From contig NC_092561.1 of assembly GCF_037975245.1 (NCBI RefSeq), positions 1,216,501-1,280,500 on the forward strand: a stretch of DNA of 64,000 nt, read 5' to 3'. This document shows, one piece after another, positions 3,977 to 21,300 of the stretch (position 1 is the first letter of the stretch; each line of letters begins with the position of its first letter). This DNA is from Apostichopus japonicus (lineage: Eukaryota > Echinodermata > Holothuroidea > Aspidochirotida > Stichopodidae). A program made the translations under genes and the position numbers. The notes under the pieces are model-generated. The model was not told where the DNA came from and searched no databases. It worked only from the letters and a program-made list of their open reading frames with translations.

Positions 3977-6900
3977 TCAAGATTTCCACATATGAGGACA
4001 GACTCTTTGATGCTGTCTCTGGTACGTGGCAGCTGAAAACGTCTTTCCGCAGTACATGCAGGCAAAGGGTTTCACCCTCATGTGAATTCTTTCATGCTTG
4101 GCTCTGTTTCCTGCATCAGAGAAGGGTTTGAAACAAATACGACACTGATATGGTTTCACCCCTGTGTGTATCCTCTCATGTCTTACCAACGAACTGACAT
4201 GAAGGAAGCATTTCTTACAGACGGGACATCTATGCTCTCGGTTTTCGCTTGACGATTCCATAGAAGAGGATTTCACAGTTTTCTTGGAGGACCTGGCAAG
4301 TTTTTTTGATTCTTGGAGTCTGAAACTTAGGCTCCTATTTGCGGCTAAGGAAGGTTTCAAATGATCGATGATAGATTTAGCCACTCTAGAAGTGCAAGCT
4401 GTCGGGTGGGACGCTGTCATAGAATTTCTGGTCACACTGGCTTTCGATGACGAATTGTAAGACATGCCTATGGGACTCGAATCTGATGTGGTTCCCCTTG
4501 AGTTGTTGATCTCTGTGATGAGAAAACGTAGAGAATGAAGACCTTTTACTAAATGTGGTTCATGTGTATTTTACAACTGTGATAGCATTAGCTGCATATT
4601 ATTTAGGTAATGGCCAATGTTTTTCTTGTAATTGATTAAACATGATTAAACATGAGTGTAGGTTTTATCACTGTCTCTGTGCACAAAACGTTTCTTTAAA
4701 GCATCAACACATTTGTGTAGCATGTATAAATCAACCTTGCTCGGCACAAACTTACGACAATAACTGATGTATAACTGGGAGGACACTTACCGACCTTACC
4801 ACTCGTGTGTTGGTAGTTTAAAATGTCGCTTTGTTTCACGTAATTTCTCTGACTTTCCTGATATTCACCGCCACCGTCGTCGTCGTCGTCTTTGTTGCTC
4901 GATTGCTCAGGGAAAGACTCGATGTCTGCGATGACTGCAAACTTTTCGTCTTCCTGGCTCTCTTGGCAAGCTTGGTAGTTCTCCTCCGGACTTTGAAAGT
5001 CTGTCTGATCTCCATCTTGTCGCCGATCGCTCTCTGCATAAACATCTTCAAGGATATCATCTGTTTCTTCTTCCTTGACTGCCAGAGCAAACGAAGAAAA
5101 AGAGTTATACCCGGGCCAAGATTTCATTCAAAATTCTGGGACGGAACTTTCACAGCAATGTTGTAAAACAAACTTGACCTTTTGGTCGTCAGGATCAGTC
5201 TGTTAAATATTTTGCTGCAGTGAGTGGAGTGTTGCAGTACGCTGCAGTTGTTGTCCCAATTGGTATTGAACAAAGGTAGCTTAATTAAAGAGATTACAGG
5301 GATTAAATTTCAAAAAAAAAAAACCATGGTCTAAACTTAATAATCAAAATACTGAACCAGGCTTTTCGTCTATATATGGCAACAAATATCTCAGTGAAAG
5401 GGTTGAGAGCATTAATGCATATCTGCTCACCGCACTGATTGTGCACTTCATATTTCTACAGCCCTCATATTCAAAGTAGGATTTGAGACCCTTTTTAGAG
5501 ACAACAAAAAAAGTTGGAGTGTCACCTAAAGAGATTAAAAAATGCTGTTTTTGCAGGAAAAATATGGAGAAATCTTGAACATAAATAGCTTCAAAAGTTG
5601 GAAAATATAACACCACTCTGCAACTATGCAGCTTGAATCATATCAAAACTTCCCTTAGCCCCATTTCCCAAGGCCACAACATAAACCACTGTAGGTGTTG
5701 CCTTGATGATGAAGGTTAAAAACTAGGCATTAAACAAGAAAGTTTGGATACCAGAGTTCTAACTGAATTACTCACTCGTTAAATATTTGTTAAAGACCAA
5801 GTCCCCGTGAGTCAATAGAGCCGAGTGCCACCATACCCTTAGCAATGATACTCACTTACTGTATTAGTTCTAGACCATGGTCCTCTGAGGAACCATAAAA
5901 ATGACTGACAGTTGTTCCAGCTGTTGCATTGCTGGATGTCGCAAAGCCTACAAGTGAGAATAAAAACCCCATTTCAGTGCATCCTAAGTACTTATACTCA
6001 CTTATAATTGTTACACCCTGGTCCTCCATGTCTTGAGACTGCTTTACATTCGTGTCTCTCTCAACTGAAATCTTCTTTTCAGGCTCAGGTGCCCAAGATG
6101 AAGAAGACTGGCCTACTTCTTCTCCTCCTCCTAAATTTCTCTCATTTTCAGTATGGTTGTAAACTGAGTGATCAAATTACAAGACATAACCAAAAATATG
6201 TTTATTGACCAATATTCTATGTCTGCACTTAACTAGGAAATAAATTGCAAGCAACTTGAAACATAGTAAAAACATATTCCAGCAGAACTGCTTCCTCTCA
6301 CTGCCACATGCCACTCTTCACCTATATCACTATGGTTACTATAGCAACATTTCCTAACAAAGTTTATATGGTCCCTCTTAAAATAACAAGCAAGAATCAA
6401 ACCATGATTCCTAAATGTAAATTATAATAAGGCTCTCTAACTGTGAATAATATCAACAGCATCGTCGGGGGGGGGGGGTGGGGAGGGAATGAGGGGGAAT
6501 GGGATGCAGGCTCCATATTCCAAACTGCTAAATTGAGTGCCAATTTACAATGAAACATCCAGTGAAATTCTACTTAAGAAAAGGAACATCAATCTACAAA
6601 AATACATTCCCTCTGGGGATCAAATTATTGGATTGGAATTTCTGAATCTCAAACCAGCCAAGTTTCCTTCATTTTGTAAAACAGAGTCGACTTTACCTTC
6701 TGCTTCATACATGACATTGTTGCCATGGTGATCTTCATCAAAACCATCTTCAGTATGTGGTAGACAGCTTGTGTAACCAGAGATGTATATTATACCTAAA
6801 TGGATAAAACAGTTGCCAACAGCATTTGGTTATTAAACTTAATCAATATCAGATCTAGCCGATAAACTCCTTTCCTTACAAATTAAATTGAAAGGAAACA

Positions 6901-9900
6901 CAAACCCAAACATCATGATTGGTCTATTCCACAGAGATAAAACTGTGAGATGCACCCTATAAAGCTCTTATTCCATTCAGGTGATATCAAAGATAATAAT
7001 ACTAATAATAATAAGCAAATATTTATAGAGCGCTTTATGCAAAGGCCTCAAAGCGCTTAAACAAGTACACAAATATGCAAGTCAAATCACTGTAAATTTT
7101 GGAATAAATGAGTTTTTAAGAGACGCTTAAAACAGTCAACCCATGGTGCATTGCGAATTGAAGATGGTAGATTGTTCCAGAGATGAGGTGCAGCAGAGAT
7201 GAAGGCTCTTTCTCAATAAAACTTTGTGTTTGGGGTATGGCTGGTGGCAAAAAGACACTTTGTAGACGAGCGAAGTTGGCGTTGAGGATGATACTGAGGA
7301 ATTAAATTTGTAATGTAACCAGGGGCAAGGGAGTGTTGTGATTTGTACGTTAAGAGGAGGAGCTTATAAATTGACCGATGTTTTACTGGAAGCCAATGGA
7401 GTGATTGAAGCACTGGAGATATGTGATCATGACGCGATGAACATGATATTAACCGGGCAGCAGAATTCTGAACAGTTTGAAGTTTTTTCAGTGTAGAACA
7501 GATTTAATGTTCCTTCACACACAACTTGCTGAAGACTTGATCAAGTCCAAATATGACATCACCGAGCCATGCATGCTTCATTTTCTTCATTTTTACGTAT
7601 TTATTAAAACGTTTTACAATCTGCCCAAAGGTTTTATTAATGCTGAATCAGAAGCTTCTAACATGACCTAAAGATGACATTGGTTTAGTAACAGTTTACA
7701 TTGTAATTATGAAAAGAAGGAATGTTGTGAAACACAATAAAGAATGTTACAGGAATCAGAACCTAGTGTCATAAATGACATCACAGATTTACACAAAATG
7801 ACAGCTTCCGGGCAAGACTTATAAACGAGGATATCTCCCAAACGGAACAAGATATTTCAGGAGGGAGAGGTTGCTCTTCACGAGGATGTCTGTCAGATAA
7901 GCCAAAGATGATGGTTGGGTTTGTGTCCCATTTTCAAGTCATGTACAGAGCTGACCTATAATAATAATAACATCTGCTTGTTATACAATCTGCGACGGCC
8001 ACTATCGATATATCAGAAAAGGTCCAGTACTGATTTCATCTATTGCTTAACGGAGTCACAATCTTCCAGACTCTGGACTGGTCTAGCTGATATTACATCA
8101 CAGACTACGCTACCTCCCCAATCGGATTAACATTTTTCTTAGCTGGTTGGAAGAGTTGTTCTTCACAAAGATCTCTGTCACATAAATGGAAGAAGATTAG
8201 TTGAGTTTGTGTCTCCTGTAAGTTAATCCAGTTGCTTGTGTTGATAAAGTAACTAACCTCTGTGAACATACAACTATAATTCTAGTATATATCATTTGAC
8301 AATAAAATGAAGAGAATAGATCCACTAGAGTCGGACTAGACAATGCATCAACCAAAAAGTCTAGAGATCACAGAGCAACAAACACAATGTGGAAATGTAT
8401 GATCTGCATATATCTCACATTTTACTCACAAGGAGAGTCAACCTTCCTATCACCAGCCGAATTTCACTCCTCCTCCCAAGGATCGGTTAGAACACATGGT
8501 ACATTGTGCATTCCTGTCCCTCCCACTAACCTTTCTGCTCCCCAGTGACAAAAGCTAGTTTCAGTATGCAGGCTCTCCAGTCTGATATTATATAACCGAC
8601 ACATCTGCATTTGAAATATCCATGGAACAACTGTCAATGACCTCAAACATGATGACAAAGCCACTTCTCTTTAAACCCTGTACCTCTAAACCAGGGTTGT
8701 CAACCTTTTGCAGAAGAGGGCCACATGGAATGATTATGATGAAAGAGGGGGCGGTATGAACCCTACGCTCAATTTTTCGATTTTTTGCCCGAAGCCGAAG
8801 GCAACAAAATGTGAGCACTGCGCGCAGAGCGAACTGATTTATTTTACCCTCTGATAAAACAGATGAATAAAGTCCAACCGCCCCCCCACCCTCCGCTGAG
8901 AGTGTCACACAAACTGACCTGTATGCAGTTTTTTGGACCCAGAAGATTCGAATGATTGATTATATAGCTTCAAATTGTTATCAATAAATCTGCTCACTAA
9001 AATTTTGCACCATAGAGCATCTCTGGTGGGCTGGACGCAACCCTGCGGGGGGCCGGACTGTGGCCTGCTGGCCATAGGTTGGACAACCCTGCTCTTAACA
9101 GTACCTTGGTACACTACTGTAGCTGAATACTTACAATCTCCATAAACTGTAAAAGTGATCTTTTCTTTAGGCATCAGCTTAAGATCTAAATTTTGTTGGA
9201 AGATAGAACCGTGGACCAAGGTACAGAGGAGAACTTCAACCTCCTCTGTTTTCATCACTACCTGAGAGAAACTGCCTGGCCATATCTTACCTGCAATACA
9301 ATATTTATAATGAGCATAATGAATACTGTACCTTCTGGAAGGTTATTGCACAACAGAGTTTTTAAATTGTCTTCAAGACGGGTAAAGAAAGAATAAACCA
9401 ATGCCTACAAGACATTCACGGCAAATGTGGTAAGGTCTAGAAACAACTCTCAATATCCACTTTATCCAGGGATGAATAAAATTTAAATTCCAGTCTTATA
9501 AACTGCAAGAAACATGGCAAGGAAAGCCGAAGAGACTTTTCATGATAATAATAATAATAATTGTCTTCGTCGTAATAATAAGTAGTCTTACAGAGTCCAA
9601 CTAAACAGGTTGCACAAGTTAAAGTGATCAATTAATAACACTTCCAAACAAAAGACTCCTTATTAAGAAAAGTCACCCAGGAAAGAACCTGGGTACAAAA
9701 ACCAAACAACCAAACGACTGATCCGCTCTCAACCCCAGTCCCCTTGCATCGAGACTGTGGCTGTGTAATCATCGTCAGGTTTGTATTCACAAAAATAATG
9801 TTAATGCTAGTTAGGCATAAGATACATGGTAAATGTATGAACATTATGTATGTTATGAGTTATTTTTCCACTTTTTTATCTGCAAAAAGCAGCAACTTTC

Positions 9901-12093
9901 AAACAAAAGGGAAAGCTTTAATGCCAAGCTTCAACTGTTCATGAAATTCGTTGATTTTAAATGAACCAGAAGTGAGTTCCACAAGTCAGGAGGAGTAGTG
10001 TGTCAGAAGCTGCGATCACCCAAGGTCATCATGCAAGCCAATGGGATTTGAAGCTGGAAAAAGTGGTGTGCTTGAAGAGCTCTGTGTGCAACTCTTAGAT
10101 GAAGAATAATTTCGTATATGCTGTCAGGTACCATACTGTACTTTATGGCTGGGAAGAGAAGAGTTTTGAAATTGTAGCTGGAAGTTGAATCTTATTCCTA
10201 AAGTGTTGAGGATAGTGATCCTGTCTGACCTAGAAACAATTCTTGCTAGATGCTGCATTTCTGGATAATTGTCATCGTAGCCTACTTTTGATAATTCTAG
10301 TTTGAGTGAGAATAAACAAATAACTGTATTTTTTTTACGGACCATTCAAGTCAATGTCCTTACTACCTATGACTTTGGTTTTTGTGTTTTGTTCTCCCAT
10401 GGTCCACTTGTGATAATTCTAGTTTGAGAGATCATAAACAAATAACAATAAGTGACGTCTATCAGCTTAACCTACCAAACTCACTCCTACTCTCCATTGA
10501 TGCCAGTGAGAGATGAACTTCTTCATTCAGCACTTTGGTGCAGGGGACACCTGGCTTTAAGGTTAACCCTGCAATGAACACAGAAAAAGAGCAAGAAAGA
10601 TAAAACAGGAGCCTCGATCATATTCACATGATTTTTTTAGTATTTCATTCAATAGGCCATTTTAATAGTTTTGACTTTCTTCAGTTTCAAAATCTATTGA
10701 ACTCAATGCAAAATGACCAGTGGCGTAGGAAGGTACTTTTGGGTGGGGGGGCTGAAGACTGATGGCCGGCCTGGGGGAGGGGTCTAAAGGGAGGGGGTGT
10801 CCCCCTCCCCTTTGGAATTTTTTTGCATTTCCAGATGGCCTCAGATGCAATTTGGTGCAATATAGCACACTTCAACACCCACTCCATTTTGTAAACTTAA
10901 TTTTGTATTTTCACCTGGCCTTAGATGCAATTTGGTGCTCCAAATGAGATTTTTTTTCTCATTTGGAAATGAAAAAGGGGTTTTCTGACTTGCGGAGCGG
11001 GGCGGCGGAATGATACTTCCGCCCCTCCACATTTTTCACTGGGGGGCTGGCGCCCCCCAGCCCCCCTGGTTCCTACGCCCTTGAAAATGACAGATGACAT
11101 GACAACAGCCAAAAAGTTTTATCATAAAATTTGATCAAGATAAAACCTCTGAGTGATACTAACCGAGCAAATTTAAGCTGCATTTCGTATATTATCTGTA
11201 AATATTTCATCAGAAGACTAAGAAATGACCAGATATGTGTCACTCTTTAGATGCATGTGCCAGTGACACTATCATTGTTATTTTGCAGAAGAAAACATAC
11301 ATTTGAAGATTCCTTTGATTACCAGAACAGATCAGTACAGAAGTATAAACACTTTTGTCAGTCATGGACATAATGAATTATACATTTGTTATTGTTAACT
11401 AAAGCAAGAATTTGTTTCTGTTTTCTAAACTTGAAATTCCCTTTGATAAATATATGTCACATTCTGTATTTTTCCATTTTCTCATCCCATTTCTGTGACT
11501 TTTCCGTTTTATAAGAATTAACAATATGTGCTTACCTTCATACCGCTGGCAACCACATGATCATGCGCAACAGAAATTAACATAACTCATGTTAACTCCC
11601 TAGTAACAAACAAAATTAGTGTTTTCTCATGTAAGGTTTTGGGATCACTAGTTTACCCATGTGTTTTTTATCACAGCTAGGGTGCTAGTTGTAGGTACTT
11701 GCAAGTTGGCTTACCTTGCAAATATCTGGGTTTTTAATGTTGAAAATGATCAAACAACAAGGCATGCCTTCCTTGTTATTTCATCACTTTCAACAGGATT
11801 TCTTAACACGGCAATGAAATCCTGTTTTCCAGTTCTACTTTCGTTTTGGTGATATTTGTCTGTTTTCCATAACACGGAAACCTTATGGCTTATATTATTG
11901 TTTGACTTGGCCACTCTGAGACGAAGAGCACAATTCAATCTGACTGACTGAAAACACGTTCTGGATGAAACTAAGAAGCAATGTCAATGGAATTGCAATT
12001 TCAATCCATACTTACTGTTAATCCTCATGTCTACACAATTGCTTGTGTAAAACAGAGTAAAATTTTTCAAACTAAAAACTTACCCCAAATCAT
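3977..12093 (-). CDS. nucleoplasmin-like domain / C2H2 zinc-finger protein, 7 coding exons
   Basis: Exons on the minus strand: 12084-12093, 10476-10568, 9135-9257, 6697-6795, 6002-6163, 4791-5078 and 3977-4512. All six introns are phase 1 with GT-AG ends, and the joined length is 1311 nt, giving 436 residues and a TGA stop. Residues 1-85 read as a nucleoplasmin-like fold: a start MIWGLTLKPG, then LLCTL, a basic LMPKEKITF stretch and a closing YISGY. This matches the N-terminal domain of FKBP39/46-type and nucleoplasmin proteins, which bind histones. Acidic stretches follow near 89-97, 163-180 and a D5 run. Three zinc fingers lie at about 354-374, 382-402 (both C2H2 with an H/C-type linker) and 410-430, the last ending Cys instead of His (C2HC). 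The inferred role is a nuclear chromatin or DNA-binding protein. The start exon codes only 10 nt, and an AG at its 5' side allows an upstream untranslated exon. The very short first exon is the least certain join. Confidence 0.72.
5860..5947 (-). other. probable cassette or decayed exon of the zinc-finger gene
   Basis: An acceptor (CACTTGTAG) and a strong donor (GTAAGTGAG) bound 88 nt of open frame, encoding a Ser/Thr-rich stretch that ends SSEDHGLELI. Its end resembles the end of the neighbouring exon 6002-6163 (MEDQGVTII). The length is not a multiple of three. Inclusion between exons 6002-6163 and 4791-5078 would shift the frame and stop early in the next exon. It may be a duplicated exon now out of phase, or a regulated frame-breaking exon. 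Confidence 0.4.
6467..6503 (+). other. G-rich tract with G-quadruplex potential
   Basis: A run of 12 G, then GGGG, GGG, GGGGG and GGG separated by 1-5 nt, on the strand opposite the zinc-finger gene, inside its intron between exons 6697-6795 and 6002-6163. The pattern meets the usual four-run G-quadruplex rule. No function is shown. Confidence 0.5.
6990..7495 (-). mobile_element. 5'-truncated LINE fragment, RT C-terminal part
   Basis: Read on the minus strand, this encodes the typical C-terminal region after the reverse transcriptase domain of CR1/L2/Jockey-like LINEs: QTVQNSAARLI, LHWLPVKHR, YKLLLLTYKSQHSLAPGYI, then APHLWNNLPSSIR, ending at a stop near 7087. One in-frame stop lies just before ERAFISAAP, so it is dead. 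The 3' end runs into an ATT/TAA-rich tail near 6995-7015, as in many LINEs. It sits in an intron of the zinc-finger gene, in the same orientation. Confidence 0.8.
7860..8225. repeat. two diverged direct copies of an 80-bp segment
   Basis: Positions 7861-7940 and 8141-8225 share an ordered set of words (gagaggttgctcttcac / aagagttgttcttcac, then gttgggtttgtgtc / gttgagtttgtgtc). The family is unknown. It lies in an intron of the zinc-finger gene. Confidence 0.4.
8692..9091. mobile_element. hAT-like MITE (400 bp)
   Basis: Terminal inverted repeats start CAGGGTTGTCAACCTTTTGC and, from the other end, CAGGGTTGTCCAACCTATGG. Flanks are CTCTAAAC (8684-8691) and CTCTTAAC (9092-9099), an 8-bp target duplication with one mismatch. 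CAG-type ends and an 8-bp duplication are hAT hallmarks. There is no transposase frame inside, so it is non-autonomous. It ends 43 nt from the donor of zinc-finger gene exon 9135-9257. Confidence 0.8.
10288..10450. repeat. short direct repeat, two copies of about 36 bp
   Basis: 'gataattctagtttgag' followed by 'ataaacaaataac' occurs at 10289-10323 and again at 10412-10447. The copies are 123 bp apart, just downstream (gene sense) of zinc-finger gene exon 10476-10568. Confidence 0.5.
10718..11083. mobile_element. hAT-like MITE (366 bp)
   Basis: The ends are CAGTGGCGTAGGAAGG and, inverted, CAAGGGCGTAGGAACC. The flanks AAAATGAC (10710-10717 and 11084-11091) form a perfect 8-bp target duplication. 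Inside are two imperfect copies of a module with 'agatgcaatttggtgc' and G- and C-rich tracts near both ends. No transposase. It lies in intron 1 of the zinc-finger gene. Confidence 0.85.
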
Positions 12094-12562: not shown

Positions 12563-13360
12563 GGTTTCAGTTGTTCTCCGCACACGGTAATTTCCGCACA
12601 TTACTTTCCGCTGAAAAAATTCTTGTGCGGAAAACAACTTTTTCTTCCACTTACCTGTACACTATATTTTTCCTCAATTTAAGGATACCAAATTCAGGTT
12701 GATGAAAATTACATGAGAAAGTATCAAAGAACGTCGATAAGGATGGCTATGACTGAGTTTACAGGTATGTCAGAACAGTTACAGTAAGCTGCTTATAATT
12801 TACAGGAGGCTTGGGGTGTTTGTAATTAGGGATTACTTAAGGAAGTATGAGGCATAATATTATATAACCCTTTATATTCTCACTCTGTACTCTGTTCTTG
12901 TTAAGGTGGAAATATCACAAAAGATACCCCACCCCCCCCTGCCGGCCCCCTAAAGGATGAAACTTAGCAGACCAAATTGTCACGGCAGCTCACCTTTTTT
13001 TCACCTTCATGCCATATCGAAAACTACAACCAAATAAGGTGGCACTGTTTAACTAAAATTAAACTTTGTGCTTACAGCCTATGCTAGTGCTTACAGCCTA
13101 AGCTACAACCCAAGCTACAGTATCCTAATAATCATCTAGTCTTGGAGCTACATTTTATCCTGCTAAAGTCAAATGCTATCTTCTCCATCCTCCTAAATCC
13201 TTCCATGTGCCAAATCATCTCAGTAAGCCATTCTGCTCCTCCCAAAAAAAAAACGGTACTTTCCGCTGAAAAAAACGTTGTTTTCCGCTGACAAATTTGT
13301 GTGTGGAAAACACCGTTTTGTTTCAGCGGAAAGTAACGTGTGCGGAGAATAACGGTACCC
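12563..13360. mobile_element. non-autonomous DNA element with long inverted repeats
   Basis: The left end has TTCTCCGCACAC then TTACTTTCCGCTGAAAA. The right end, inverted, has TTCTCCGCACAC then GTTACTTTCCGCTGAAAC. Further 'ttccgctga' and 'gcggaaaac' words are nested inside each end, so the termini are complex inverted repeats. CATATAT flanks both sides (12556-12562, 13361-13367), a possible 7-bp target duplication but low complexity. No transposase frame was found, and the superfamily is not assigned. Confidence 0.6.
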
Positions 13361-15364: not shown

Positions 15365-18300
15365 ATGGAAAACTGTGTTTGTGAGGTCCCGTTACTACGT
15401 AGTGCTTTTTTGGTTTTTCTGGCTTTTTCTACCATAGTGTACGTTCTTCTTCAAGGTAAGTTTATTTCTATTTTTAAATCAGATTAACATTTCAATTTAT
15501 TTTAAATGTAGAAGAGAAATAAAATGCAACTGTAGAAGCCTTGTAGTAAGTACGTTCTAGATGTGAGCGTACTTGTCTTCGTTAAGTTTTTACTGGAATT
15601 GGGCTTTTCGAATATAGTTTAGATGATACTATAGGCATAGGAGTCGGGGTGGATCGAGGGGTGGGGGTGCAGGCCCCTCCCAACAAAATATATCCGTCAA
15701 AGTTCGGGCAATTGAATACGCTGGTATTGTTTCGGGAACTTCAAAAAATGAAGGGAGAAAAAATAATTATTATAATGTTTGCAATACTCTTGTTTGATGA
15801 CAGTTAGTAGTTCCGTATCAAAAACCTCAGCGCTAGGTAATTACACTAACGTTCTAAGCTTGCCCGACCGATCTGTCACCGATATTGTGGAGTTCTGATA
15901 CAGTTCGCACTCCATGCTCTCCTTCTGTGTCAATGACGACATTGTAATATGTATCACTGATGGCATTCCATATGACGAATTTGAATTTCAAAGGTGAGGG
16001 GCATCTCACCAGTGTATTTTTATACTGGTTACATTTCTCTGGCAAATAATTACAGCCCCCCCCCCCCCCCCACACACACACATTCAAAATGAGCTCCAAC
16101 GCAAATGGATGCTACTGCAAGATTACTGACTCGTGCTTAGACTGATTCTTGTACTCGTACCAAATAGGGGTTATACCGTACTTGTGTTCATGATATTGTA
16201 CACATAGGCCCTACTCATGTTGTTGTGGTACTAGTACTACAAGTGTGGTAACTACATATTGTGTTGAATGTTTCATTTAGTTCCAAAACATGCCATTTTG
16301 ATGGTATTTAGACATAATACGATAGATGGTATATACCTTTATAGTGGACTTGACATACCAATGTAGCCTTTCTAAAAAATATTGAATCCATTATACAGCT
16401 TTTTTTACACTCTTTAAATAATTATGATTTTTTCATGTATTATCACAACCGAAACCTGGATTAATGACCAAATATATACATGTAGTATGTTAAACATTGA
16501 TGATTACAATTGTTGTCACAATGACAGAGTTGATTGAAAGGGTGGTGGCGTTGATATTTATGTTAGAAATCATCATAAGTTAAGCAATGATTTAAGTTGA
16601 TTATGGATAAATCTGAATCTATTTTCAGTGACGTCCTGAATGCAAATCGTGACAACATTATTATCGGTGTTGTATACATAAACCCTGGTGGTGATTTTCA
16701 TTCCTACAATCATAATATTAGTAACCGCCTGGAAGTAATTTCGGCCGAAACAAAAAACTTGTTTTATAGCTGGTGACTTTAATGTTGACCTTTTAAAATC
16801 AGCTTGCCATCCCATTCCTAAACACCTTATATTAACATGTATATAATCCAACGATCGACAAGATTACGAGAATTTTACGTCTATATCCTTAATCGATCTC
16901 TCATCTTTTTTTTACAAATAGTCATCGTACTAACGTGCAGAGTGGTATTATAATAACCGATATTTCTGATCATTATCCTATTTTCTGCTGTTAGCAAAAC
17001 TCTATTCATAAAATATAATTCTTCTTCGAGTGTTATTAATTATACTAGTGTCCGGAACACTTCGAAATGAGCTGTTGTCTAAAGATCGGACATATGTTAT
17101 CAATCATCAGAATGCAGATTCTGTATTTAAAAAGATATAAAATTAAATAAAACTGTTAGCAAACTGCTTATCTACTAAAGAGCCTATGTAAGAATTTGTA
17201 AAAGTAAGTTGGCCTGACGTTTGGATCCTAGCAGGATCTTCTTCAGAGGTTAAATGACAAGAAACAGTAACAGAAGGTACAAAAACACGCACAGAATACA
17301 AACAGGTTAATGAGCATGATGAACACAAAGAGATAGATGTAAGGGGATTAGTAGACAGGGGATGGAGAGAAGAAGAAACCAACGGGGGAAGAGGAGAGGT
17401 AGGAGATGAACTGTAGAGGGACAAGAAGAGGATTAAGGGAAGAGGAAAGGGAATAAACTAGAGAAGGACAAAGACAGAAATGTGTGGAAAAATAGGGTGG
17501 AAAAGAGCTGTGAGAAAAGGAGTGACGGGGAGAAGACAAGGGGAGATGGGGGGGGGGGAATGGAGGGGGAACAGAAAAAAGTTAGTCACGTCCTTTCCTG
17601 AATGTTAAGCCCATCAGGTTGAATGGTGCGAAGGCGTTTCATCCAGTCTCTCTCTGCTGATTCGTACTAGGTCAGGACGGCTACCCGAGGATTCAATCCC
17701 CTGTAGCGACATGCCATTAATGGTATGTTTCGAAAGGTTAAGGTGTTCTCCAACCGGGGTCTCAGTCTTCATGGTGTTGATTGTGGATCTGTGATAAAAT
17801 GAAAGGGAACAGAAAGATTATCAGAAATATTCACAGTGTTCCATACATTACCCATAGTGCACCTCTGTTTTACGACTCTGACATATTTTCGACCTTTACA
17901 GTCATCAACTTGGGAGTTTTATGTATAAATTTTATCTCAGACTCTTACAATTTAAATACGGTCGAATTCGACCACACCGGCTTAGCTATGCCACTGGTTA
18001 ACATAATCGATGAATCCGGTACACTTTTATCCATTGACCTTGAAACTCATCGCAGTAGTTAGCTAATAGTTTAATATTATTTATTTACTATTTTCACTAT
18101 AGTTTTTGTCATTCATCCCGCTTTGTGTCTTCTTTTTTTTCATCAGAATCTTCCTTTACATTTCTAAAATTCCAGTGGACAAACAGGTCTTTCACTAAAC
18201 ATAACAAGTTTAATATCGCATCATGGCGCAATAAGGAATTACCCCAATTTACAGATAATTCGACAGGTCCTTCTAACGCCGAGAAGGTACCCTTCATTGA

Positions 18301-21300
18301 CCGGCTCGTTCAAACTGATGCGGCAACTCCGTCTGAGAGATTGGTCGGGGCCAACTTCCTGAACAATCGTACAAAAACCAACGAGATGGATTTATCTGAA
18401 GTGGTAATCAAATCATCCATCCATCCATCCATCCATCCATCCATCCATCCATCCATCCATCCATCCATCCATCCATCCATCCATCCATCCATCCATCCAT
18501 CCATCCATCCATCCATCCATCCATCCATCCATCCATCCATCCATCCATCCATCCATCCATCCATCCATCCATCCATCCATCCATCCATCCATCCATCCAT
18601 CCATCCATCCATCCATCCATCCATCCATCCATCCATCCATCCATCCATCCATCCATCCATCCATCCATCCATCCATCCATCCATCCATCCATCCATCCAT
18701 CCATCCATCCATCCATCCATCCATCCATCCATCCATCCATCCATCCATCCATCCATCCATCCATCCATCCATCCATCCATCCATCCATCCATCCATCCAT
18801 CCATCCATCCATCCATCCATCCATCCATCCATCCATCCATCCATCCATCCATCCATCCATCCATCCATCCATCCATCCATCCATCCATCCATCCATCCAT
18901 CCATCCATCCATCCATCCATCCATCCATCCATCCATCCATCCATCCATCCATCCATCCATCCATCCATCCATCCATCCATCCATCCATCCATCCATCCAT
19001 CCATCCATCCATCCATCCATCCATCCATCCATCCATCCATCCATCCATCCATCCATCCATCCATCCATCCATCCATCCATCCATCCATCCATCCATCCAT
19101 CCATCCATCCATCCATCCATCCATCCATCCATCCATCCATCCATCCATCCATCCATCCATCCATCCATCCATCCATCCATCCATCCATCCATCCATCCAT
19201 CCATCCATCCATCCATCCATCCATCCATCCATCCATCCATCCATCCATCCATCCATCCATCCATCCATCCATCCATCCATCCATCCATCCATCCATCCAT
19301 CCATCCATCCATCCATCCATCCATCCATCCATCCATCCATCCATCCATCCATCCATCCATCCATCCATCCATCCATCCATCCATCCATCCATCCATCCAT
19401 CCATCCATCCATCCATCCATCCATCCATCCATCCATCCATCCATCCATCCATCCATCCATCCATCCATCCATCCATCCATCCATCCATCCATCCATCCAT
19501 CCATCCATCCATCCATCCATCCATCCATCCATCCATCCATCCATCCATCCATCCATCCATCCATCTATCTATCTATCTAGTTGAAATTGTAGAACTCGCG
19601 CCTTGCGCTTTATATGCAGACACCCTAACCACTATGCTATGGACGCTGATTGTATGTCCATAGGTTCGACACTGGTAAGGAAGGTCGTAATTCGACTGTA
19701 GGCGGATTGTAATACCATTACACAAGTTTCATTGTGGAACTTTCGTGTGGACCTAAAATTATAGAGCTACTAATTTATAGCCCAACCGCCCTTACAAAGC
19801 ATCATTTCATGTTTTTCCTGGAGATCATGTTCACTAAATCCGGCCACCCCCCACTCTTCTACGTGGGAGTGGCTTCAACGACCCGAGGGCTAATCCCCTC
19901 CGTATTAAACTGATGGATCCACCACTCGGAAGTTTCGAACCCTGCAGGTCTATTGTTTGTATGCAAAACTAACCATAACATGCTGTTAGCACAAAGTTGA
20001 ATTCAATACACTGTAATATGTTGCAGATTGTAACTCGCTGTGGTTTTAACGTCTGTGAAGTTAATGGTATTTAAAATTCAAGAAACGTTTCACAATAACA
20101 TTTTAAACAAAGTCAACGCGTGTTAGCTGAGCACGATTCTCATTGGGTTTATGCTACCAAGTGTTTTATCAGGGAGTTGTTTCCATAACAACTCCCTGGT
20201 TGTATCTAACTAAATCTGGTACAGGCGTAGAAAGGTATCGTATATAGTGTAGGCTACTGTGGTGACGTTGCAAATATATCACATGTTCTTTAACTGGGTC
20301 GTAGATGCCACGTACATGTATGCAGGGTATAATAATGGGTTAGATTGATTATCCGAAGTAACGAACTAATTATAAAGTGGAATGCACGCATGTATTTTCT
20401 TTATGGAACACTTATACTCTGACGTAAACTACATACTTCCATAATACGTTTATGTTGTGTCCAGCAGTTTTCACATTAATTTTGATGTAGAAATATTTGT
20501 ATTGTCACAGTGAAATAACTGGTACAATAATAGGGAATTCATTTATTCTCTCTCTCCACCTCTCTGTTTTTTGTATTTATAATTCTAGTTTGAATGTGGT
20601 GAAACGTGCCAGGAAATAATTCAGCAACACAGACAGCGGATCCTACAAGATTCTTGTCATAAGAAACCTATCAATGGTCCGCCCTCTCTATGGAACAAAA
20701 CTACAGGTCACTTAAATCCATCGGAAATGAGAAGACTTGGACATATATATCCTATACACAGTATGGGTGTTTTATTCTGTACTGTACCGAAAGGTGGGTC
20801 CAGTACATGGAAAAAACTCATGTTAGCCGCGATCGGACGCATTGAGACCCCCGAGAGTTACAAGGGAGACATTCACCCATTGTTTCACAATGTTGTCAAA
20901 TCTTTAGGTAAATATAGTGTTAACGAAACCGAAGAAATGCTCAAGACGTACAACAAGTTTGTTATCGTCAGAGACCCAATGCAACGGATGTTATCACTCT
21001 TTCTTGATAAAGTTGTTCGAAAGCACAAATTAAAATTTAACGAAAGTCAATTTGAGGGATTTTTAAAATTTATTCTGAAGACTCCGAATAGATTTCAATC
21101 AGTAGGATTCGATGAACATTGGACGCATACTTCGTATTTATGTTTACCTTGTGATATCAATTACAACTTCATTGGACGTTTGGAAACTTCTCAAAGAGAT
21201 ACCAAATATATTTTTGATCATTTTCTTCAAAAAGCCAAAGTTAATTACAGTTTGACATTACGACCTACGAAACATGAAACCAACAGCACAGCTCCCGAAA

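Follow-up and report, generated by a model that had tools for sequence, protein, structure and literature searches.

A predicted sea cucumber gene joining a nucleoplasmin-like domain to three Krüppel-type zinc fingers

Gene model and genomic setting

We analysed a 64,000-nucleotide stretch of genomic DNA from Apostichopus japonicus (the window), in which seven predicted exons on the minus strand, running from 12093 down to 3977, join into a single open frame of 1344 nt (447 codons plus the stop). The frame begins with a nucleoplasmin-like (NPL) domain and ends with zinc fingers, and the sequence around the gene is AT-rich and contains repeats. The exons, rebuilt from splice signals and from the NPL frame, are the following.

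12084..12093, minus strand: exon 1, coding part, 10 nt; MIW and the first base of a G codon; donor in the best 0.4%
10476..10568, minus strand: exon 2, 93 nt; N-terminal NPL strands with a His-x-Ser motif (VHLS)
9135..9290, minus strand: exon 3, 156 nt; central NPL strands; weak acceptor
6697..6795, minus strand: exon 4, 99 nt; final strand of NPL (IIYISGY), with the first acidic stretch
6002..6163, minus strand: exon 5, 162 nt; linker; weak acceptor; the least secure internal exon
4791..5078, minus strand: exon 6, 288 nt; acidic linker that opens with a SUMO-like IKEE and contains five Asp in a row; 4800 is an alternative donor
3977..4512, minus strand: exon 7, 536 nt with the stop; basic Ser-rich linker, then three C2H2-type fingers

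The six introns all have GT-AG ends and lie in phase 1, and each of the five internal exons is a multiple of three in length. The initial annotation had likewise placed every intron in phase 1, a uniformity that is partly built into the model because junctions were picked so as to keep the frame. Its joining of seven exons into one frame is borne out by the rebuilt model, but its length of 437 codons is not; some junctions must therefore differ, for instance at the exon 6 donors 4791 and 4800, which lie nine bases apart, are both phase 1 and score 4.7 and 5.2. It had also proposed that phase 1 introns permit exon gain and skipping. The arithmetic of this proposal holds, but the NPL domain is spread across exons 1–4 and its fold would be broken by the loss of exon 2, 3 or 4, which leaves only exons 5 and 6 as plausible cassettes.

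Five TGG-G/GT-like sites at which a start exon could end lie between 10569 and 18300. An in-frame ATG precedes two of them, and exon 1 is the one site at which it is accompanied by a GTAAGT donor. The candidate at 18246, which has an in-frame ATG and a poor donor, was rejected, as were the other three, which have no ATG. Between 12084 and 12900 there may be an intron in the 5′UTR: position 12655 is followed by a GTAAGT donor, and an acceptor in the best 8.6% of AG sites would make 12099 the first exon base. The TATA-like sequence AATATAAAGGG is found near 12878. Past the stop codon, the nearest poly(A)-like signal is ATTAAA at 2377, 1.6 kb away, which counts against the model. The window holds no further copy of the gene that tblastn could find at E up to 1, since this search returned exons 2–7 alone, exon 1 being too short for detection. 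The whole window contains no Rfam family at the gathering score and no tRNA.

Several other features share the window. A tandem array occupies 20500–64000 and reaches the window end. Its spacing is about 7.62–7.71 kb, except that the first two copies lie 9.37 kb apart, and it comprises six copies of an open frame of 277–278 codons that are 97–100% identical in DNA and 94–100% in protein. One copy, scanned directly, matches Sulfotransfer_2 (PF03567) with E=9.5e-40. A 5′ exon is likely for these copies because their first Met does not come until residue 46, and in one copy until residue 58. Between this array and the NPL gene, 291 copies of the tetranucleotide CATC (99% matching) fill 18414–19577 and coincide with a GC skew of –0.67. 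The minus strand also carries an open frame at 7213–7503 in which we see a likeness to the terminal part of a LINE-type reverse transcriptase; Pfam gave it no match at E up to 1.

Support for the exons as one gene

Splice sites were scored with a matrix and ranked among the 3,715 GT and 3,519 AG sites of the minus strand. All six donors fall in the best 4% of GT sites, with that of exon 4 in the best 1.7%. Four of the six acceptors (exons 2, 4, 6 and 7) fall in the best 2.4% of AG sites, those of exons 6 and 7 in the best 0.8%, and the remaining two are weak, being matched or beaten by 20% of AG sites for exon 3 and by 26% for exon 5.

A codon score was trained on exons 2, 3, 4 and 7 together with the sulfotransferase frame at 20589, and compared with a null of stop-free non-coding windows taken from the flanks. 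None of 62 null windows reached the score of exon 6, and 30 of 770 reached that of exon 5, which thus stands above 740 of them; the null windows overlap and are hence not independent. The score fails to single out the frame in these two exons. When stops are removed, an alternative frame of exon 6 ties with the frame used (0.107), and an alternative frame of exon 5 scores 0.114 against 0.031. These alternatives hold two and five stops, respectively, whereas the frames used hold none. Because the codon score fails to pick the frame, exon 6 is backed mainly by its open frame and its good splice sites. Exon 5 is weakly supported.

On this gene model, a single transcript would hold all seven exons. 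The weak exon 5 raises the alternative of two adjacent genes on the same strand, one for an NPL protein (exons 1–4 or so) and one for a zinc-finger protein, fused by the prediction. An in-frame ATG (MSYN) ahead of the fingers in exon 7 could serve as the start of the second protein. However, the phase fits at all six junctions, and a break would have to lie behind exon 4, 5 or 6; only 533, 923 and 278 nt, respectively, separate these exons from the next, and the exon 4 donor and the exon 6 and 7 acceptors are among the good sites ranked above. We therefore regard two fused genes as quite unlikely.

Intron 5 contains a candidate 88-nt exon (5947–5860) whose acceptor is in the best 0.9% and whose donor is in the best 3.1%. 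Its length is not a multiple of three, so its use would shift the frame ahead of the fingers. These sites lend something to the idea that the locus is a decayed pseudogene, or a gene giving mainly a truncated product through this exon. The codon score of the candidate is nevertheless like that of non-coding sequence, the 447 codons run without a stop or a frameshift, and two of the three fingers keep standard ligands, the third ending in Cys. Decay or predominant truncation is accordingly very improbable.

The nucleoplasmin-like domain, linker and zinc fingers

In the spliced protein, the Pfam family NPL (PF17800) matches residues 2–95 with E=1.6e-14, covering positions 1–93 of the 94 in the profile. 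The match scores 54.9 bits against a curated cut-off of 23.4, lies at the N-terminus and belongs to a region that begins MIWG. Since the choice of junctions can fit a spliced sequence to a family, exons 2–7 were also scanned as plain contiguous translations. Exon 3 by itself, unspliced, matches NPL with E=2.2e-07 and exon 7 by itself matches zf-C2H2 with E=2.2e-10. No family matched exon 2 or exon 4 on its own (30 and 32 residues), and exons 5 and 6 alone gave weak, unrelated matches that all stay under their curated cut-offs. Joining exons 3 and 4 improves the NPL match to E=1.5e-10, and exons 1 and 2, taken together with the residue at their junction, reach E=0.018, under the curated cut-off. 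A chance match to NPL is ruled out by the values for the spliced protein and for exon 3 alone. A match of NPL pieces to PMI_typeI_C (E=0.1 and 0.048, under its cut-off) was set aside. The nucleoplasmin-like N-terminus named in the initial annotation is thus recovered as a family match, and its three C-terminal zinc fingers as three zf-C2H2 stretches, of which the third closes with Cys.

Five PDB chains match up to E=10, and four of these contain NPL; the fifth (E=1) bears the name of an unrelated protein. The four are plant FKBP53 (0.0028), plant FKBP43 (0.0033), Drosophila FKBP39 (0.014) and plant HDT1 (0.25), so that the likeness to HDT1 is weak and the three FKBP chains score better. Judged by these sequence matches, the N-terminal domain is of the FKBP/HD-tuin type and not that of a classical nucleoplasmin. 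The FKBP39 pore residues reported as strongly affected are Ser22, His24, Ser26, Asp62, Asn64, Tyr86 and His88 (PMC4414354). Four of these seven are kept here (His24, Ser26, Asp62 and Tyr86) and Ser22, Asn64 and His88 are not, in our own reading of the alignment, which takes the numbering of that paper as two above the protein numbering.

Behind the NPL domain, residues 96–290 are strongly acidic, with 49 D/E against 14 K/R and a run of five Asp. The charge then turns basic in residues 291–373 (5 D/E, 17 K/R), a stretch that extends into the first finger. SUMO-like motifs occur twice, as MKTE at 47 within the NPL domain and as IKEE at 174. The fingers lie at residues 365–385, 393–413 and 421–441, and two of the three follow the standard pattern C-X2-C-X12-H-X3-H. 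They are joined by the linkers TGVKPYQ and MRVKPFA. The usual Krüppel linker is TGEKPY, to which the first is close; the second is just partly consensus-like. The best chain for the fingers is ZNF568 (E=1.4e-60), and among the best 60 of 185 matches are ZNF and ZBTB chains. Their sequence likeness is to the Krüppel fingers of animals.

Relation to known proteins and proposed function

A 2015 survey describes three multi-domain arrangements of NPL, namely the NPL-FKBPs, the plant HD-tuins with a C-terminal zinc finger and the nucleoplasmins (PMC4414354). A paper of 2025 again gives three NPL classes, with the HD-tuins as a plant-specific class that has a “possible” zinc finger (PMC11993163), and NPL with a C-terminal zinc finger is also attributed to plant HD-tuins elsewhere (PMC5225439). 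The initial annotation had considered the pairing of such a domain with zinc fingers unusual. For NPL and a C-terminal finger as such this does not stand, as the plant HD-tuins of these three papers already carry the combination; three animal-type Krüppel fingers, on the other hand, do look new. Because the 2015 survey assigns the zinc-finger arrangement to plants (PMC4414354), NPL with three Krüppel fingers appears to be a novel arrangement. Thus NPL is already known in combination with C2H2, while the gene described here, as judged from its predicted protein, is one that fits none of the three NPL classes.

The plant HD-tuins (HD2/HDT) are described with the same order of NPL, acidic tract and C-terminal C2H2 finger (PMC4414354, PMC11993163), but they have one finger where the present protein has three of Krüppel type. 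As the type of finger differs, the animal order was probably assembled independently of the plant one. The NPL-FKBPs (Drosophila FKBP39, Arabidopsis FKBP43 and FKBP53, yeast Fpr4) provide the closest solved NPL domains by sequence, the three with a match lying between E=0.0028 and E=0.014, and share the acidic linker; they end, however, in an FKBP isomerase domain, and none is found in the spliced protein at E up to 1. Classical nucleoplasmins (NPM1-3, NLP) have acidic tracts in common with it and the same fold is expected, but no such family matched at E up to 1 and the fingers are an addition here. In Toxoplasma TgNF3, NPL and an acidic region are reported to be followed by a further C-terminal domain, as in our protein; the source calls that domain divergent, with an unknown function, and does not present it as zinc fingers. 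A sea urchin COMPASS-like chromatin protein was rejected as a relative, the accessible part of its description giving a Compass domain and a homeodomain and leaving nucleoplasmin unmentioned (PMC3784565). Among the open-licence papers listed by literature searches we recognised no animal protein with NPL and zinc fingers, although one may be in print elsewhere, and predicted entries of such proteins may well exist in sequence databases. A 113-residue piece compared with IMG/VR viral contigs gave one pattern match and no confirmed relative.

We consider it fairly probable that this is a real multi-exon animal gene and that it encodes an oligomeric, DNA-targeted nuclear chromatin factor. By analogy with related proteins, the N-terminal NPL domain would form an oligomeric ring, the acidic tract behind it would bind histones like the acidic tracts of other NPL proteins, and the three C-terminal Krüppel-type fingers would bind DNA. 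One oligomer would then carry several finger arrays and might bring its histone-binding acidic tails to chosen sites. We infer an oligomer with histone-holding tails and DNA-holding fingers because NPL relatives oligomerise and acidic tracts bind histones. The isolated NPL domain of FKBP39 is reported as a pentamer and HD2 as a dimer of pentamers (PMC4414354). Full-length FKBP39 is reported as a tetramer (PMC5225439), and for this reason it is unsafe to deduce the size of the ring. The acidic tract is said to be needed for histone binding in nucleoplasmins, with AtFKBP53 as an exception (PMC11993163), and an FKBP39 NPL construct is reported to bind histones (PMC4414354).

The main rival to a DNA-targeted chromatin factor is that NPL does no more than oligomerise an otherwise ordinary C2H2 transcription factor, as BTB or SCAN does, with no role as a histone chaperone. 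Animal C2H2 factors of the BTB-ZF and SCAN-ZF families have an N-terminal oligomerisation domain and Krüppel fingers in the last exon. The gene described here has NPL in the place of BTB or SCAN, and its layout is in line with such factors: the Krüppel fingers sit in a single last exon behind a phase-1 intron, and the N-terminal domain sits on separate symmetric exons. Without acidic tracts, the NPL domains of AtFKBP43, AtHDT2 and PfNPM are also described as not binding histones (PMC11993163). Against this, the NPL domain here is followed by a strongly acidic linker with its run of five Asp, as in histone-binding NPL proteins, and we hold a purely oligomerising role to be improbable. If the domain does merely oligomerise, it would be one more such domain for C2H2 factors.

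A more far-reaching form of the chromatin-factor reading, which we offer tentatively and regard as doubtful, is that the protein represents an undescribed animal NPL class beside the nucleoplasmins, NPL-FKBPs and HD-tuins. Such a class would consist of ring-forming histone chaperones with a multi-finger DNA address, which might load or remove histones at chosen sequences and would be convergent with the plant HD-tuins. Should transcripts confirm the gene model, both animals and plants would have NPL fused to DNA-binding fingers, and the animal protein would offer a simple test case for aiming a histone chaperone at specific DNA through fused fingers. The contact positions –1, 2, 3 and 6 of the fingers, read by hand, are H S S R in the first, D G N K in the second and A T Y Q in the third.
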